Both the position numbers and the translations under genes were made by a program. From Chloroflexota bacterium (lineage in GTDB: Bacteria > Chloroflexota > Ktedonobacteria > Ktedonobacterales > Ktedonobacteraceae), in contig JAJZEJ010000329.1 in the NCBI GenBank assembly GCA_021828635.1, positions 1-6,558 on the forward strand: a DNA stretch of 6,558 nucleotides, given 5' to 3'. The notes beneath the pieces were generated by a model, which did no database searches, was not told the DNA's origin, and saw nothing but the letters and a program-made list of their open reading frames with translations. Positions 115-6,558 of the stretch are shown in pieces; position 1 is the stretch's first letter; each line of letters begins with the position of its first letter.

Positions 115-1386
115 ATGACACGGCGCGTCGTCATCACCGGACTTGGGGTAGTTGCCCCTAATGGTATCGGCAAGGAAGCATTTTGGCAAGCCTGTGTACA
201 GGGACGTTCAGGCGTCGTTCCTATCAGCCGTTTTGATGCCAGCCCTTTCTCAACACGCATCGCAGGTGAGGTGCAAGATTTTGACCCATTAGCGCAAGGT
301 CTGACCCCAGAAGAGATCGCATCCCTGGGGCGCGGCACACAGTTCGCACTTGCTGCCGCTAATCAGGCGCTGGCCGACGGCGCTCTCCCCGTACTTGATG
401 AGGCAGAACGCGAGACAACGGGCGTCATCATGGGCAACGCAATGGCGGCGGTTGAGGAAGGCGAGGATATCTGGGTACATTACACTGGTAACAGTCCATA
501 TGTTGAGCGCCATGCTTCTACGTCTCGCACGCTTGTACCAGATCATCCATCGGTCAAAATCGTCATGGCTTATGTTCCTTCGTCGGTCATAGCCGCGCAT
601 CATCAGCTCTACGGGCCATGTATGTCGGTCTCTACTGGTTGCTCGGCGGGCGGAGGCGCAATTGGACAGGCTTTCTGGACCATTCAGGAAGGACGCGCTG
701 AGCGTATGCTGGCTGGTGGCGCGGATGCCGCGATTACCCCCGGTGGCATCAATACCTTCGCCGTCATGCACGCTTTAAGTCGGCGCAACGATGACCCAGC
801 CCGTGCCTCACGTCCCTATGACGGTAAGCGCGATGGCTTTGTCATGGGTGAAGGTGCAGCTGTCCTGTTGCTAGAGGAACGCGAGGCCGCACTGGCACGA
901 CATGCTCGAATCTATGCTGAACTGATCACCTTCACCTCGAACTGCAATGCCTATCATATGACCGCCTTGCCGGAAAATGGTACGCCATTGCAAGAATTAT
1001 TACGCCAGACCTTACAGGAAGCCGATATTGAGCCGCACCAGCTTGGCTACATCAACTCGCATGGCAGTTCGACGCTACTCAACGAGGTTGCCGAGACGGC
1101 TGCCTATAAAGCGGTATTAGGAGAAAGCGCCTATCACATCCCCATCAGCGCCACTAAATCGATGATCGGCCACACCCAGGGTGCCGCGAGCGCCATTGAG
1201 ACGGTAGTGACAGCCCTCGCGCTCTACTACCAGATGCTTCCTCCAACGATTAATCAGGAGCAACCAGACGCCCGTTGTGACCTGGACTATGTGCCAAATG
1301 TAGCGCGAGCAGCGAACTTCGAGTTTGCGCTAACCCATTCAAGTGGCTTCGGCGGCGTCAACAGCGCCCTGATCTTACGACGCTAA
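115..1386 (+). CDS. Type II polyketide synthase ketosynthase, KS-alpha subunit
   Basis: This 423-residue protein is a complete condensing enzyme of the thiolase fold, the usual length for FabF and KS-alpha proteins. It should catalyse decarboxylative Claisen condensation of malonyl-ACP units in the cytoplasm. Catalytic residues are all present: nucleophile Cys176 in VSTGCSAGG, His316 in NSHGSST, Lys348 and His353 in TKSMIGH, and the C-terminal GFGGVNSA loop (411-418). Several segments point to aromatic polyketide KS-alpha rather than fatty acid FabF: CNAYHMT (277-283), RNDDPARASRPYDGKRDGF (224-242), CDLDYVP (388-394) and the N-terminal RRVVITG. The CLF-like partner begins 40 bases downstream, which strongly supports a KS-alpha/KS-beta heterodimer. 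No acyl carrier protein is visible in the window. The alternative, a FabF paralogue making a specialised lipid or polyene, is less likely given the partner. The product is unknown. Confidence 0.88.
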   Translation: MTRRVVITGLGVVAPNGIGKEAFWQACVQGRSGVVPISRFDASPFSTRIAGEVQDFDPLAQGLTPEEIASLGRGTQFALAAANQALADGALPVLDEAERETTGVIMGNAMAAVEEGEDIWVHYTGNSPYVERHASTSRTLVPDHPSVKIVMAYVPSSVIAAHHQLYGPCMSVSTGCSAGGGAIGQAFWTIQEGRAERMLAGGADAAITPGGINTFAVMHALSRRNDDPARASRPYDGKRDGFVMGEGAAVLLLEEREAALARHARIYAELITFTSNCNAYHMTALPENGTPLQELLRQTLQEADIEPHQLGYINSHGSSTLLNEVAETAAYKAVLGESAYHIPISATKSMIGHTQGAASAIETVVTALALYYQMLPPTINQEQPDARCDLDYVPNVARAANFEFALTHSSGFGGVNSALILRR

Positions 1387-1409
1387 CATTTATAGCGGCA
1401 CCAATTCTC

Positions 1410-1415
1410 AGGAGG
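1410..1415 (+). promoter_or_regulatory. Ribosome binding site for CLF
   Basis: AGGAGG lies 11 bases ahead of the ATG at 1427 and 14 ahead of a second in-frame ATG at 1430. The first ATG has the better spacing and is taken as the start. The two choices differ by one Met. Confidence 0.7.
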
Positions 1416-1426
1416 AGATACATTCC

Positions 1427-2704
1427 ATGATGGCACAATCAGAGCGGCGCGTCGTTGTAACGGGCATAGGGATTGTTGCCCCTAATGGTATCGGCAAACA
1501 TACATTCAACCATGCTATCGAGCAGGGAAAAATGGGTATTAAACCACTCCACTTAGCTGATACAACACTACCATTCAAGGTTGGAGGCAAGATCGATGAC
1601 TTTGTAGCAGAACACTATCTGGAACGCAAACTGGTTCAACGTACCGATAGAATGACACATCTGGTACTCGCGGCTATACAAGAAGCCATGCATGACTCAG
1701 CCATCAACATGGAGCAAGAAAATCCTCTGCGCGTCGGCGCGGTCATTGCTAATACAGTTGGTGGCGCTGCATTTGCCATTAAAGAGGTCAGGAAACTATA
1801 TATGGATGGACCACGTGCCATGAGTGCTTTTACCTCTATTGCCTGGATCCAAGTAGCTAATGTTGGGCAAGCCGCGTTGCTCTATGGTTTTCGCGGCTAC
1901 TGCACAACACCGGTCAACGATCTGGTGGGCGGGCTTGATGCTTTCGGCACAGCCTATCATGCTATACGTCACAACGTGGCTGACGTACTAATCACGGGTG
2001 GCTGTGAGGCTCCACTGGATCCTTATGTACTGATGACGCAGGGCCAAACCGGCTGGTTAACCACCGGTGACGACACAAGTGCCTATTGCCCTTTTGACCG
2101 CCAAGCCAGGGGCCTGCTGTTAGCCGAGGGTGCTGGCATCTGTATCCTGGAAGAGTACGAACATGCGATGCAACGTGGCGCGATCATCTACGGCGAAATC
2201 GTGGGCTATGGACAAACCAACGATGCCACAGGTTGGCGTTCACAGCCAGAGAATGGCAAACAATACGCTCGCGCAATCAGACAGGTCATGCAGGAGGGCC
2301 AGATTGACCCTCACAAAATCGGCTATTTCAGCCTGGATGGACGTGCGCTACCAGCCGCCGACCACGCCGAAGCTGACGCCCTCCAGCGCGTCTTTGGCAC
2401 ACAGATGGAACACCTGCCAGTCAGCGTACCGCGTACCATGCTGGGTCACAGCTATGCCGCCGCAGGAGCAATCGACACCATTACCGCACTACTCGCATTA
2501 CAAGAGAACTTCATTCCACCAACCCTGCACTGTCCTGACCTCAACCCGGATTACGGTCTCATGCTCGTTCGGGATGAAGCACGCTCATTACATGGCGATG
2601 TGGTCATGCTCGGCGCTCGCAGCTTCGGCGGCTCGAATGTTGTGTTAGCCCTACGCAAAATGCCAGCGAACCACCATTTGCAGTTTTGCGTATTACAGGA
2701 GTAG
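1427..2704 (+). CDS. Chain length factor (KS-beta) of a type II polyketide synthase
   Basis: This 425-residue protein has the ketosynthase fold but lost the active site. By alignment with the preceding gene, the nucleophile is Leu166 (NDLVGGLDAFG), the first His is Asp304 (SLDGRALP) and the Lys is Arg336 (VSVPRTMLGH). His341 is kept. It shares segments with CLF proteins: VRKLYMDGP (121-129), AWIQVANVGQ (139-148), GGLDAFG (168-174), PFDRQARGLLLAEGAG (222-237) and VSVPRTM (332-338). In known systems CLF pairs with KS-alpha, shapes the tunnel and sets polyketide length. Most CLFs have Gln at the lost nucleophile, so Leu is unusual. Residues matching the actinorhodin CLF gate are small (Ala114, Ala117, Val121). 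The gene follows KS-alpha by 40 bases and is surely co-transcribed. A dead KS partner in a non-aromatic pathway is the main alternative. Confidence 0.85.
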   Translation: MMAQSERRVVVTGIGIVAPNGIGKHTFNHAIEQGKMGIKPLHLADTTLPFKVGGKIDDFVAEHYLERKLVQRTDRMTHLVLAAIQEAMHDSAINMEQENPLRVGAVIANTVGGAAFAIKEVRKLYMDGPRAMSAFTSIAWIQVANVGQAALLYGFRGYCTTPVNDLVGGLDAFGTAYHAIRHNVADVLITGGCEAPLDPYVLMTQGQTGWLTTGDDTSAYCPFDRQARGLLLAEGAGICILEEYEHAMQRGAIIYGEIVGYGQTNDATGWRSQPENGKQYARAIRQVMQEGQIDPHKIGYFSLDGRALPAADHAEADALQRVFGTQMEHLPVSVPRTMLGHSYAAAGAIDTITALLALQENFIPPTLHCPDLNPDYGLMLVRDEARSLHGDVVMLGARSFGGSNVVLALRKMPANHHLQFCVLQE

Positions 2705-2763: not shown

Positions 2764-3474
2764 ATGAAACAAAACCCTAAGAAACGTTCTGGCTTTGTAC
2801 GCGAAATTGTCGAAACCGTCGTACTGACCATTTTAATTTTTGTCGTAGTGCGCTTCGCGGTGCAAAGCTATTATGTTGATGGTATCAGTATGGAACCAAC
2901 GCTCCACAATACGGAACATATCATGGTCAACAAATTGGTCTATCTCTTTCACGCTCCTCAGCGTGGCGATATCATCGTCTTCGCGGCACCACCAGACCCC
3001 AGCCAGGATTATGTCAAACGCATCATCGGCCTGCCTGGTGATGTCATCACGGTCAAAAACACGACTGTGATTGTCGATGGCGTGACACTCAATGAAACAT
3101 ATGTCGCACCTCAAAACCAGGGTAATCCCTATGCATACAAGCCGTTAACAAATATCGTTGTGCCAGCGAATGACTACTTTGTGCTTGGGGATAATCGCGC
3201 TGTCAGTTCAGACTCGCGTGATTGGGGTTTCGTGCCACGTGCCAATATTGTCGGCGAGGCAGCTTTCGTCTACTGGCCTTTCAATGCCAACAATCTCGGC
3301 TGGTTGCCAAACGTGTCCGCCGTCTTCGCCCGCGTGCATCAAGGGCAGCCCAACGGTATAGGCTCCCATACGCCATATAGCAATGCACCACTCGATGCTG
3401 ATGGACTATTCCTCTTTCTATCGCTCGATGGAAGTCTCTTCCTCTATGCGTTCTTCTCGAAGATCAAAAGCTAA
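2764..3474 (+). CDS. lepB: Type I signal peptidase
   Basis: This is a 236-residue membrane-bound serine protease that removes signal peptides from exported proteins on the outer face of the cytoplasmic membrane. A short basic N-terminus (KKR) precedes one hydrophobic helix at about 14-34. The catalytic Ser42 lies in GISMEPTLH and the Lys85 partner in DYVKRIIGLPGD (82-93). The family box GDNRAVSSDSRDWG is at 142-155. One membrane helix is the Gram-positive and Chloroflexota style. The start is firm: an in-frame TGA directly precedes the ATG, and AGGAAG lies six bases upstream. The catalytic domain seems to end near residue 190. The last 45 or so residues are unusual and include a second hydrophobic stretch (214-231). 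The gene follows CLF by 59 bases, so read-through is possible, but a housekeeping role is more likely than one in polyketide synthesis. Confidence 0.93.
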   Translation: MKQNPKKRSGFVREIVETVVLTILIFVVVRFAVQSYYVDGISMEPTLHNTEHIMVNKLVYLFHAPQRGDIIVFAAPPDPSQDYVKRIIGLPGDVITVKNTTVIVDGVTLNETYVAPQNQGNPYAYKPLTNIVVPANDYFVLGDNRAVSSDSRDWGFVPRANIVGEAAFVYWPFNANNLGWLPNVSAVFARVHQGQPNGIGSHTPYSNAPLDADGLFLFLSLDGSLFLYAFFSKIKS

Positions 3475-4820
3475 ATAGAGATCAAACGCAGTTCGTTATA
3501 GGCGGCGAGGGCGCGGTCGATAAATACATCGGCGCTGCCCATATACGCCATTGGATCGAGTGCGCGGTCAATCTCCTCTGGTGAGAGAGCGGCGCGTACT
3601 CGCTCATCCGCTAGCGCCACCTGCTGTAGATTCTCTCCCACACTGGTAACATGCTTACAGAGAGCCTGTACAATACGATATGCCTCTGGTCTTCCCATAT
3701 GCGGCGCAAGGGCTATCGTTAGTGATTCTGCCATGACCAGCCCACCGGTCAGATCAAGATTGATCTTCATGCGCGTAGCATCGATCTGTAAGCCGGTAAC
3801 AGCTCCTCGCACTCCTTCAATCGCACCGGATGTATAGCAAAACAGATTAGGAATAGCGGCCCATTCCGCCTGCCACCCTCCCACGGCACGCTCGTGTTCT
3901 TGTGTCATCGCGGACAAGATGACTGGCACGACGCCCACAGCCAGTCGTGCTGCCGCAATGGCGCTGGTCGCATCGACGGGATTGTGCTTTTGCGGCATCG
4001 CCGATGAGCTGCCCTTGCCTTCTGCTGCGCCCTCCATTACCTCACCGACCTCAGTTTGCGCAAGCAGGGCTACATCGCTGGCAATCTTGGACATCGCACC
4101 AGCTACGATACCAAGCGTGGCAGCAATCTGCGCCACGCGGTCGCGTTCAGTGTGCCAGGGCAGGTCTGGTATGGGCAACTTCAGTTCATCGGCAAGTAGC
4201 TCAACAACCTGGAGACCTTTATCTCCCAACGAGGCCAATGTTCCGGCAGCACCACCCAATTGCACCGCCAGTGATCGTTCGCGCCGCTCACGCAATTCAC
4301 TAAGCAAGCGTATCGCCAAAGCCAGCCAGCGTGCTGCCTTGAGTCCAAAAGTGATTGGCAAGGCTTGTTGCAATAGGGTACGTCCGACCATCGGCGTATG
4401 CCTGTGCAGCTCAGCAAGCTTTGCACATGCGGCACATATTTCCAATAACTTGGCTATAAGAAGGTCGAGACCATCACGAATCTGGAGCATCAAAGCCGTA
4501 TCAATGGCGTCCTGACTCGTCGCTCCCCAATGGACAAATTTTTGGGCATCGCCTTCAACACGCGCCGTCAACATACGCACCAGAGGAATCGCGGGTGTAC
4601 CAGCGAGGACAGCTTCACGATACAGTGCCGCGACATCAAACAACTCTACCTTGCAACGGGCCGCGATAGCTTCGGCGGCTTTTTGGGGAATGATACCAGC
4701 GCGGGATTCCGCATGGGCCAACGCCGCCTCAAAACTCAACATGCCCCGCACATGGGCGTCGAGCGAGAAGGCGGCGGCCATCGCTGGTGTGCTATAGAGG
4801 AACTCGATTGATTCTGCCAT
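3471..4820 (-). CDS. pcaB: 3-carboxy-cis,cis-muconate cycloisomerase
   Basis: The 449-residue protein belongs to the fumarase/aspartase/argininosuccinate lyase superfamily. It should convert 3-carboxy-cis,cis-muconate to 4-carboxymuconolactone in the protocatechuate branch of the beta-ketoadipate pathway. The superfamily signature GSSSAMPQKHNP is at 270-281 and the HWGATSQD segment at 97-104. Segments GRTLLQQALP (146-155) and GGWQAEW (314-320) favour PcaB over the related adenylosuccinate lyase, as does the pcaHG context. The gene starts 15 bases after the pcaG stop. Its ribosome binding site is weak (AGAAG at 4830-4834), so it may rely on translation arriving from pcaG. Its TAG stop overlaps the stop of lepB on the other strand. 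The length is typical and there is no sign of damage. Confidence 0.92.
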   Translation of the reverse strand: MAESIEFLYSTPAMAAAFSLDAHVRGMLSFEAALAHAESRAGIIPQKAAEAIAARCKVELFDVAALYREAVLAGTPAIPLVRMLTARVEGDAQKFVHWGATSQDAIDTALMLQIRDGLDLLIAKLLEICAACAKLAELHRHTPMVGRTLLQQALPITFGLKAARWLALAIRLLSELRERRERSLAVQLGGAAGTLASLGDKGLQVVELLADELKLPIPDLPWHTERDRVAQIAATLGIVAGAMSKIASDVALLAQTEVGEVMEGAAEGKGSSSAMPQKHNPVDATSAIAAARLAVGVVPVILSAMTQEHERAVGGWQAEWAAIPNLFCYTSGAIEGVRGAVTGLQIDATRMKINLDLTGGLVMAESLTIALAPHMGRPEAYRIVQALCKHVTSVGENLQQVALADERVRAALSPEEIDRALDPMAYMGSADVFIDRALAAYNELRLISI

Positions 4821-4835
4821 ACAGTATTACTTCTA

Positions 4836-5426
4836 TCACACGTTAAAAAATGCCGTCTCATCTGTGCCTTGCATGATAATATCAAAGCGATAGATGACCG
4901 TGGTATCATACTGCTCATGCTGCTCACGTCGCGCTAAGAGTGTGGAGCGTCTCTCTTCAGGAACATATTGCAGCACCGGGTCGTCTGCGTTCGTGGCTTC
5001 GTCGGCAAAGTAGAGCCGCATCACAAGATGGTTGAGCAAGCCACGTGAGAAGATAGTAACACAGATATGCGGTGCCTGGAGCCGTTCCTTGTCAAACACG
5101 ACCCGCCCCGGCTTGATCGTTTCAAACCAGTAGACGCCATTCTCATCGGTACCAGAACGTCCAAAACCTACGAAAGTGGGGTCAAGCGGAGCCGCACTCT
5201 GATCGGCTGGATGATTGTAGCGTCCGTGCGCGTTGGCCTGCCAGATTTCGATCATGGCATCGGGTACTGGTAAGCCATCGCCATCGAGAACACGTCCCTC
5301 GATGCGGATACGCTCACCTACGGTTTCGGGCTGAGTCAGCACGTGACGACGCGCATCTTCGCGCAATAAAGCAGGCTCAAAAAATGGCCCAACCGTCTGT
5401 GAGCCAGTTAGCAACCAGGTAGTCAT
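4836..5426 (-). CDS. pcaG: Protocatechuate 3,4-dioxygenase, alpha subunit
   Basis: This 196-residue protein is the non-catalytic-iron half of the intradiol dioxygenase that cleaves protocatechuate to 3-carboxy-cis,cis-muconate. The N-terminal SQTVGPFF (9-16) and the C-terminal ETAFFNV are typical of alpha subunits. It has the shared domain EGRVLDGDG.PVPDA.IEIWQAN.HGRY (43-70). The iron ligands seen in the beta subunit are degraded: the second Tyr falls in GRVVF, and the His-X-His pair is His120-X-Cys122. Arg137 (MRLYF) matches an alpha residue known to line the pocket. The start at 5426 is chosen because it shares one base with the pcaH stop (TAATG) and has GGAGGGG five bases upstream. A start at 5501 is open but would add 25 unlike residues inside pcaH. 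Coupled translation would give equal subunits. Confidence 0.93.
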   Translation of the reverse strand: MTTWLLTGSQTVGPFFEPALLREDARRHVLTQPETVGERIRIEGRVLDGDGLPVPDAMIEIWQANAHGRYNHPADQSAAPLDPTFVGFGRSGTDENGVYWFETIKPGRVVFDKERLQAPHICVTIFSRGLLNHLVMRLYFADEATNADDPVLQYVPEERRSTLLARREQHEQYDTTVIYRFDIIMQGTDETAFFNV

Positions 5427-6151
5427 TAGCGCCCCTCCGACTCGAATGGCGTGGCATAAGCTCCGCGCACAACAATATCCCAGCGATAGCCCAGCGCCCA
5501 CTCAGGCTCGGTCACACTATGGTCATAGGCGGCAATCAGGCGTTGGCGGGCGGCCTCGGTTGGCACGGACTGCATGATGGGGTCAAGCGCGTGCAGCGGG
5601 TCGTCAGGAAAATACATCTGCGTCACCAGACGTGAGAGCATCGACGGGCCAAAGACCGCGAAATGGATGTGGGCTGGACGCCAAGCATTTGTATGATTTT
5701 TCCAGGGATACGCCCCCGGACGAATGGTCAGGAAGCGATAGACGCCCGCCTCGTTGGTCAAACAGCGACCCATGCCGAGAAAGTTGGGGTCGAGTGGCCC
5801 CGGCCATTGGTCGCGTTTGTGCAAATAGCGTCCAGAAGCGTTAGCCTGCCAGATTTCCAGCAGCATGTTCGGTACAGGATTGCCCTGGTCATCGAGGACA
5901 CGTCCGGTTACGATGATACGCTGACCAATAGCCTCGCTGTCAGTTCCGGCATTGCGCGTAAGATCAGCATCTTCGGGTGTAACAGCACTCATCACTGGTC
6001 CAGGGCCGGTCAATTCCGAGAGCGTCAGTGGCACATCAATCAGAGGCAGTAGGGGCGCACGACGGCGCGTAGATTGGTAGGCTTCATACAGATAAGGCGG
6101 GAAGACCTCTCTGTCTCCTCGAATGATTGCTCCAATAGTGGTTTGTTCCAT
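5426..6151 (-). CDS. pcaH: Protocatechuate 3,4-dioxygenase, beta subunit
   Basis: This 241-residue protein is the iron(III)-binding subunit of the intradiol dioxygenase and pairs with PcaG, encoded immediately downstream. All four iron ligands are visible: Tyr109 (ASGRYLH), Tyr148 (PGAYPW), His161 and His163 (RPAHIHF). Arg158 sits next to them, as in the family. Their spacing matches the Pseudomonas enzyme with an offset of one. The N-terminal region has the beta-subunit pattern (R.D.EVFPPYLYEAYQST and TLSELTGPGP, about 11-52). AGGAGG at 6156-6161 lies four bases ahead of the ATG. An ATG at 6153-6155 is out of frame and not used. The stop overlaps the pcaG start by one base. The protein is cytoplasmic and there is no signal peptide. 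Catechol or hydroxyquinol dioxygenase is unlikely because both subunits are present. Confidence 0.95.
   Translation of the reverse strand: MEQTTIGAIIRGDREVFPPYLYEAYQSTRRRAPLLPLIDVPLTLSELTGPGPVMSAVTPEDADLTRNAGTDSEAIGQRIIVTGRVLDDQGNPVPNMLLEIWQANASGRYLHKRDQWPGPLDPNFLGMGRCLTNEAGVYRFLTIRPGAYPWKNHTNAWRPAHIHFAVFGPSMLSRLVTQMYFPDDPLHALDPIMQSVPTEAARQRLIAAYDHSVTEPEWALGYRWDIVVRGAYATPFESEGR
5432..5438 (-). promoter_or_regulatory. Ribosome binding site deciding the pcaG start
   Basis: On the - strand GGAGGGG sits inside the end of pcaH, five bases ahead of the ATG at 5424-5426. With the TAATG stop-start overlap, it settles the pcaG start against the longer open frame that begins at 5501. Confidence 0.8.
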
Positions 6152-6216: not shown

Positions 6217-6229
6217 TCACAAGCTCAAT
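6207..6229 (-). other. Small stem-loop over the methyltransferase stop
   Basis: Nine bases can pair (ATTGA-TTGT with ACAA-TCAAT) around a three-base loop, with a two-base bulge on one side. The methyltransferase stop codon lies in and beside the loop. The stem is A+T rich and no run of T follows on the - strand, so it is not a standard terminator. It may be chance. Confidence 0.2.
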
Positions 6230-6558
6230 GCCGAATAAATCTCGTGCAAGAAGCTACTCGGCACGCGCTCTAGTAGCGTGGTACTGGCAAAGCCGTTGCG
6301 GAGCGAGAGAGCTTCCCATGTGCTATAAGAAAGCGGATACGGCACCCAGGGATTGCCGCGATCAGCGTTATATTCCACCAGAAGAAGCCTGCCACGCGGT
6401 TTCAGGTAGCCTTTCACTAGAGTCAGCACGCTCCCTTTGTTGCGCACAAAGTGTAGCGAGTTTGCCATCACAATGCCATCGAGTGGCGGCAGGGACAATG
6501 GGCGCGTGAAGTCAGCCTGTTGATAGTGAACGGTCTGTGTTGGGAAGCGGCGACGCAT
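6217..6558 (-). CDS. Class I SAM-dependent methyltransferase, C-terminal part
   Basis: At least 113 residues of the C-terminal half are present; the gene runs off the right edge, so the Met at the border is probably internal. The visible part has the second half of the Rossmann-like methyltransferase fold. ADF (15-17) fits the acidic residue that contacts the adenine. LDGIVMANSLHFV (26-38) fits the strand and helix after it, and LKPRGRLLLVEYN (52-64) is the typical motif that ends in a beta strand. The SAM-binding glycine motif (GxGxG) would lie in the missing part. The substrate cannot be told. It is on the same strand as the pca genes with a 65-base gap, so it could lead that operon, but a methyltransferase is not a usual part of the protocatechuate pathway. 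Confidence 0.8.
   Translation of the reverse strand: MRRRFPTQTVHYQQADFTRPLSLPPLDGIVMANSLHFVRNKGSVLTLVKGYLKPRGRLLLVEYNADRGNPWVPYPLSYSTWEALSLRNGFASTTLLERVPSSFLHEIYSALSL

Follow-up and report, generated by a model that had tools for sequence, protein, structure and literature searches.

The DNA analysed here is a 6,558-nucleotide (nt) stretch of contig JAJZEJ010000329.1 (assembly GCA_021828635.1), referred to below as the window, from a Chloroflexota bacterium of the family Ktedonobacteraceae. Near its start lie two adjacent genes of the ketosynthase (KS) family. The first (115..1386, + strand) encodes a 423-residue active ketosynthase of the putative KS-alpha type, and the second (1427..2704, + strand) encodes a 425-residue inactive partner of the chain-length factor (CLF) type; both proteins match Pfam PF00109 and PF02801. 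The 40-nt gap between them (1387..1426, + strand) holds a Shine-Dalgarno-like AGGAGGAG ahead of the CLF start. From comparison with related sequences, we consider it quite probable that the pair makes up the KS-alpha and CLF components of a ktedonobacterial type II polyketide synthase (PKS). An active/inactive KS-alpha/CLF pair had been proposed in the original prediction; the residue pattern and the trees agree on it, firmly for the CLF and as the likely assignment for the KS.

Alignment places an intact catalytic set in KS-alpha, namely Cys176 (nt 640-642), His316, Lys348 and His353. The alignment comprised 119 single ktedonobacterial KS rows, counting the window KS and an identical database copy, and 64 KS halves of natural KS-alpha-CLF fusions, which are described below, together with eight actinomycete KS-alphas, one Apilactobacillus KS and nine FabF proteins as references. 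The four residues are retained in all 183 ktedonobacterial rows (182 distinct sequences). By alignment, the CLF has Leu166 (nt 1922-1924) at the site of the nucleophilic Cys, Asp304 at that of the first His and Arg336 at that of the Lys, and it retains the second His (His341). Relatives largely share this pattern: across 209 CLF rows (146 single CLFs and 63 CLF halves of fusions), the Cys is lost in 208, and the His-to-Asp change, the Lys-to-Arg change and the retained second His are found in every row. The former Cys site, Leu in the window, is mostly Thr among these relatives.

Actinomycete pairs, including the actinorhodin KS-CLF (PDB 1TQY), resemble the window in their KS-then-CLF gene order, their active/inactive pattern and their grouping in trees. 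The His-to-Asp change of the window CLF also occurs in all eight actinomycete CLF references. At three other sites the window CLF differs from them: Leu stands at the Cys position where Gln is found in six of the eight, Arg336 where all eight have Lys, and the second His where all eight have Arg.

Five motifs had been quoted in the original prediction, and all of them are present: RNDDPARASRP (nt 784-816), CNAYHMT (nt 943-963) and DLDYVP (nt 1279-1296) in KS-alpha, and VRKLYMDGP (nt 1787-1813) and GGLDAFG (nt 1928-1948) in the CLF. DLDYVP also occurs in four of the nine FabF references and RND[DE]P..ASRP in two. Because FabF has two of them, the motifs alone are weak evidence and were dropped; the active/inactive residue pattern and the trees are the stronger evidence.

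Phylogenetic placement of the pair

Trees were built with IQ-TREE from three sets of sequences. The largest held 75 rows, 40 ktedonobacterial and 35 from references. A 59-row set kept 20 of the 40 ktedonobacterial rows and gained four rows, three of them aryl-polyene-like. For a 41-row tree and the accompanying approximately unbiased (AU) tests, 18 of the 59 rows were omitted: nine that were long-branched or distant (L016, two Apilactobacillus rows, two polyene rows, L028, NodE, L018 and L029_APE1) and nine merely for speed (four ktedonobacterial rows, one FabF and four actinomycete rows). We assigned the labels of the Nonomuraea KS and CLF, the Listeria FabF and the aryl-polyene and polyene rows ourselves, from BLAST, model scores or gene order.

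In the 75-row tree, ktedonobacterial, actinomycete and Apilactobacillus CLFs form one group (support 100/99) and the corresponding KS-alphas another (99/95), with the FabF, NodE and polyene rows outside both; the window falls in a sub-clade on a starred branch with three sampled members. The CLF group returns at 100/99 in the 59-row tree, a set that includes very long rows. In the 41-row tree, actinomycete and ktedonobacterial CLFs group at 100/100, the KS-alphas at 99/95, and KS-alpha and CLF together stand apart from FabF at 99/94. Ktedonobacterial KS and CLF proteins each form a clade of their own in this tree (100/100 and 100/99, respectively). AU tests reject a topology in which the ktedonobacterial KS and CLF make up one clade, as duplication inside the lineage would require (p = 2.3e-7), and one in which the CLF joins FabF (p = 4e-17). 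A tree of this kind was the check suggested in the original prediction; the CLF goes with actinomycete CLFs, not with FabF, and the KS goes with KS-alphas in the free tree. Our sequence data point firmly to a placement of the CLF with the actinomycete CLFs, and the KS likely belongs with the actinomycete KS-alphas.

A ketosynthase of the aryl-polyene or polyene type was considered and rejected. Such rows lie outside both window clades in the 75- and 59-row trees, where these references are few and their branches long; the only row of these kinds in the 41-row tree is one of aryl-polyene type. The Apilactobacillus KS and CLF, which group with KS-alpha and CLF in the 75-row tree, also sit on long branches. 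In the 59-row tree, L016 (end branch 3.84) joins the Apilactobacillus KS, a position that the program flagged as doubtful; the bootstrap of this tree did not settle. On an Apilactobacillus kunkeei plasmid (L019, 5986-13099), a KS and a CLF-like gene lie beside an annotated benzoate-CoA ligase and a putative polyketide cyclase. This locus has the look of a compact type II PKS cluster in a lactobacillus associated with honeybees.

The closest relatives by identity stand at 87 and 77% for the KS and at 92, 85 and 74% for the CLF. The longest contig listed is 7,876 bases for the cluster of the window KS and 105,108 bases for P0003, the 77% relative. Organism names, some of them truncated, accompany 14 of the 120 KS matches listed and five of the 120 CLF matches listed, and all of these are Ktedonobacteraceae, Ktedonobacterales or Chloroflexota; among the matches listed, the first organism-named KS match has 70% identity. 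These names bear out the non-actinomycete origin suggested in the original prediction. The base composition was called moderate there, and the G+C content of the window is 54.0%.

Publications already describe ktedonobacterial type II PKS genes, and the earlier suggestion of a little-studied pathway does not stand as something new. In the parts of these sources available to us, 11 type II PKS clusters are reported across nine ktedonobacterial genomes (PMC6497799), three clusters are predicted in Ktedonobacter racemifer, whose KS/CLF (KraA/KraB) is soluble in E. coli (PMC6638757), a D. vulcani cluster is described as having a 'triad-like' KS-CLF architecture and an acyl carrier protein (ACP) activated by its own phosphopantetheinyl transferase (PPTase) (PMC12391972), and KS-CLF pairs are reported from 14 phyla, Chloroflexi included (PMC10132072). 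The available text on one further data set has type II PKS clusters confined to chromid-like contigs (PMC13289182). The window is like KraA/KraB and the other published ktedonobacterial clusters in organism class and in gene pair. It is a further member of this known group, and its CLF has a distinct signature.

Natural fusions and a proposed mechanism

The unexpected part of this analysis, and the part most worth following, is that KS-alpha and CLF are fused in a number of relatives. The first fusions met were P0086 (692 aa; KS and CLF searches), P0124 (682 aa; CLF search) and P0013 (579 aa; KS search). Read at full length, each has a KS followed by a CLF, and the CLF of P0013 is cut. After a further search with P0124, we sorted 327 retrieved proteins by length and by matches to both window proteins; 64 have KS-alpha and then CLF in one chain (P0240-P0299, P0302, P0013, P0086 and P0124), a proportion that is no frequency because the P0124 query favours fusions. 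Fifty-eight of the 64 are 837-910 aa long, and their linkers differ greatly. P0290 comes from Dictyobacter arantiisoli, of the class Ktedonobacteria, and its domain content is ketoacyl-synthase with merely a weak, overlapping Thiolase_N match. In P0262, the linker between the two halves includes a stretch that, by eye, resembles translated repeat DNA, which hints that this fusion ran through an intergenic repeat.

FastTree trees require 10 changes between the fused and single states for the KS rows and six for the CLF rows, and the starred branches alone force six changes for the fused group in each of the two trees. By this local-support method, several fusions or splits likely lie behind the fused state. 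The fused relatives support a one-to-one partnership of KS-alpha and CLF in the lineage, and by analogy the window proteins may pair in the same ratio. A natural fusion of a type II KS-alpha and CLF was not found in the literature searched, in which most subscription journals and supplements were beyond reach. The 'triad-like' architecture of the D. vulcani cluster may be related to these fusions.

Polyunsaturated fatty acid (PUFA) synthases, in the accessible part of one source, likewise carry KS and CLF in one polypeptide, as a KS-CLF didomain (PMC9702510). In contrast to these synthases, the fused relatives consist of two domains standing alone (as scanned for P0290), and the window KS and CLF are separate genes. 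A PUFA-type didomain of a multidomain synthase was rejected as an identity for the window pair because the window has two separate open-reading frames (ORFs).

In the type II PKS that we propose, KS-alpha would carry the growing chain on Cys176 and condense it with malonyl-ACP through His316 and His353. The inactive CLF would pair with KS-alpha as a heterodimer and shape the tunnel that sets chain length. The ACP would presumably be encoded elsewhere, and malonyl decarboxylation would presumably proceed without the Gln that most actinomycete CLFs carry. The product might be aromatic. At the aligned positions of Phe109, Thr112, Phe116 and Phe133 of the actinorhodin (act) CLF (letters F, T, F and F confirmed), the window CLF has Ala, Ala, Val and Ile. 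We take these four act CLF positions to be gatekeepers. The residues of the window CLF there are smaller than those of act CLF, and since small residues stand at these positions our guess is that its tunnel may be fairly roomy, longer than that of actinorhodin, whose chain is C16.

A broader idea, which we offer tentatively, is that Ktedonobacteria possess their own ancient lineage of type II PKSs. Repeated fusion of KS-alpha and CLF into a single chain (~850 aa) would have fixed the 1:1 ratio within it. CLFs of this lineage would do without the Gln, priming would not run via CLF-assisted decarboxylation, and the window pair would be the unfused form on its own sub-branch. Natural single-chain KS-CLF proteins would offer building blocks whose stoichiometry is already set, and they would show directly whether the heterodimer depends on having its two subunits free. 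Since the Cys site of the CLF holds a different residue here, the question of chain priming becomes approachable in a second lineage. Aromatic PKSs from outside the actinomycetes are wanted because several non-actinomycete KS-CLF pairs can be expressed in E. coli, according to the available parts of two reports (PMC11744666, PMC6638757).

Competing explanations

Several results weigh against the assignment of the pair to a type II PKS. The split between KS-alpha and FabF is weaker in the 59-row tree (88/93), and the AU test does not reject a topology with the KS beside FabF (p = 0.099). In a search of PDB sequences, the top match of the KS is the actinorhodin KS (333.9 bits), with 1e5m, which we take to be the Synechocystis FabF, nearly level at 331.3 bits; for the CLF, the FabF entries 3o04 and 5sxo (248.7) outrank act CLF (243.3). 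The KS also passes the cut-off of NF005589, a model of a broad beta-ketoacyl-ACP synthase II subfamily (411.8 bits against 387). The CLF lacks the Gln found at the Cys site (its Leu166) in six of eight actinomycete references, although the other two have Gly and His there, so that Gln is usual and not universal. Inactivity may not hold for every fusion CLF, because in the CLF half of P0262 a Cys occupies the aligned nucleophile site itself and 29 of the 63 fusion halves have one a single residue past the lost nucleophile (compared with residues 166-167 of the window CLF), a feature of none of the 146 single CLFs. Finally, no ACP, ketoreductase or other reductase, cyclase or PPTase was recognised among the downstream ORFs of at least 70 aa.

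A housekeeping FabF with a decayed duplicate would be in keeping with database names such as beta-ketoacyl-ACP synthase II and with the NCBIfam scan, in which FabF is the top model for both proteins. The window KS shares with FabF its fold, its catalytic residues, DLDYVP-type motifs and the passing of NF005589. Yet both proteins fall under the cut-off of the FabF equivalog (TIGR03150, 493.75), at 431.8 bits for the KS and 313.6 for the CLF, as do all five actinomycete KS-alphas (424.8-443.5 bits) and the one actinomycete CLF (239.5 bits) scanned as controls. On NF005589 the window CLF is under the cut-off (310.3 bits), the control KS-alphas score 414.4-432.2 and the control CLF 232.6; because five of five actinomycete KS-alphas pass, this model cannot separate KS-alpha from FabF. 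The window KS scores like an actinomycete KS-alpha, and neither model cleanly divides KS-alpha from the wider FabF family. The three fusions scanned with TIGR03150 (P0290, P0240 and P0249) do exceed its cut-off, at 688.5-787.3 bits in two stretches each, probably because their two halves add up, and such summed scores may explain the database names. In addition, the pair stands on a separate branch from FabF in the free trees and has an inactive partner, whose His-to-Asp and Lys-to-Arg changes are constant in 209 of 209 rows, and duplication within the lineage is rejected by the AU test given above. We regard a FabF and its decayed copy as very unlikely.

That an actinomycete type II PKS pair was recently acquired by horizontal transfer, as the matching gene order might suggest, seems to us more improbable still. 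The ktedonobacterial KS and CLF clades are separate and fully or almost fully supported, and the G+C contents of the two genes (56.4 and 53.2%) are like those of their neighbours (48.9-57.4%), as is G+C at third codon positions. Among plasmid records, the best-ranked matches are in actinomycetes, at ~45% identity for the KS (1240 records, none at or above 60%) and 38.7% for the CLF (910 records, none at or above 60%). Recent transfer is unlikely because the named relatives are all Ktedonobacteria or Chloroflexota and these plasmid-borne actinomycete matches reach only ~39-45% identity. A single-sequence scan of genome contigs found four loci at 29-33% identity, in Bacteroidota and Pseudomonadota, and two scans of viral contigs found no relative.

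Alternatively, the pair could form a ketosynthase heterodimer that makes a specialised lipid, a pyrone or another non-aromatic acyl product in Ktedonobacteria, a KS-CLF in form only. The KS placement with FabF that the AU test leaves standing would suit such an enzyme, as would downstream genes with no recognised aromatic tailoring function, the second His kept in the CLF, and Leu or Thr in place of Gln at its Cys position; PUFA synthases, in the available text, make lipids with a KS-CLF didomain (PMC9702510). Against it stand the 100/100 grouping of the CLF with actinomycete CLFs and the position of the FabF, NodE, polyene and aryl-polyene-like rows outside the CLF clade. We think this explanation rather unlikely. 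The FabF with a decayed copy, the recent actinomycete transfer and the aryl-polyene or polyene type are rejected or held less likely, and our preferred assignment remains a type II PKS pair, KS-alpha with CLF, from a ktedonobacterium.

Neighbouring genes

The window extends 114 nt 5' of KS-alpha and 3,854 nt 3' of the CLF. A terminator-like stem just 5' of KS-alpha, spotted by eye, was rejected: the terminator scan made no call, and positions 40-114 are no more stably folded than shuffled versions (z of -0.64). No RNA family over threshold and no tRNA was found in the window. The Pfam scan covered 17 of the 20 ORFs of at least 70 aa, the other three lying inside the KS and CLF genes.

A signal peptidase I gene, lepB (2764..3474, + strand), begins 59 nt 3' of the CLF on the same strand; it matches Pfam and TIGR02227 (169.1 bits, cut-off 47). 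We treat it simply as a neighbour of the pair. Three genes of protocatechuate catabolism follow on the - strand, each over the cut-off of its model: pcaB (3471..4820, TIGR02426), pcaG (4836..5501, TIGR02423) and pcaH (5426..6151, TIGR02422). The pcaH-pcaG-pcaB set converges on lepB, and the 3' ends overlap by 4 nt. By eye, the GTG start listed for pcaG seems too early, and an ATG 25 codons further in fits better. At the end of the window, which truncates it, lies a methyltransferase-like fragment (6217..6558, - strand) with weak matches, the best at E 0.0015 and under the curated cut-off.

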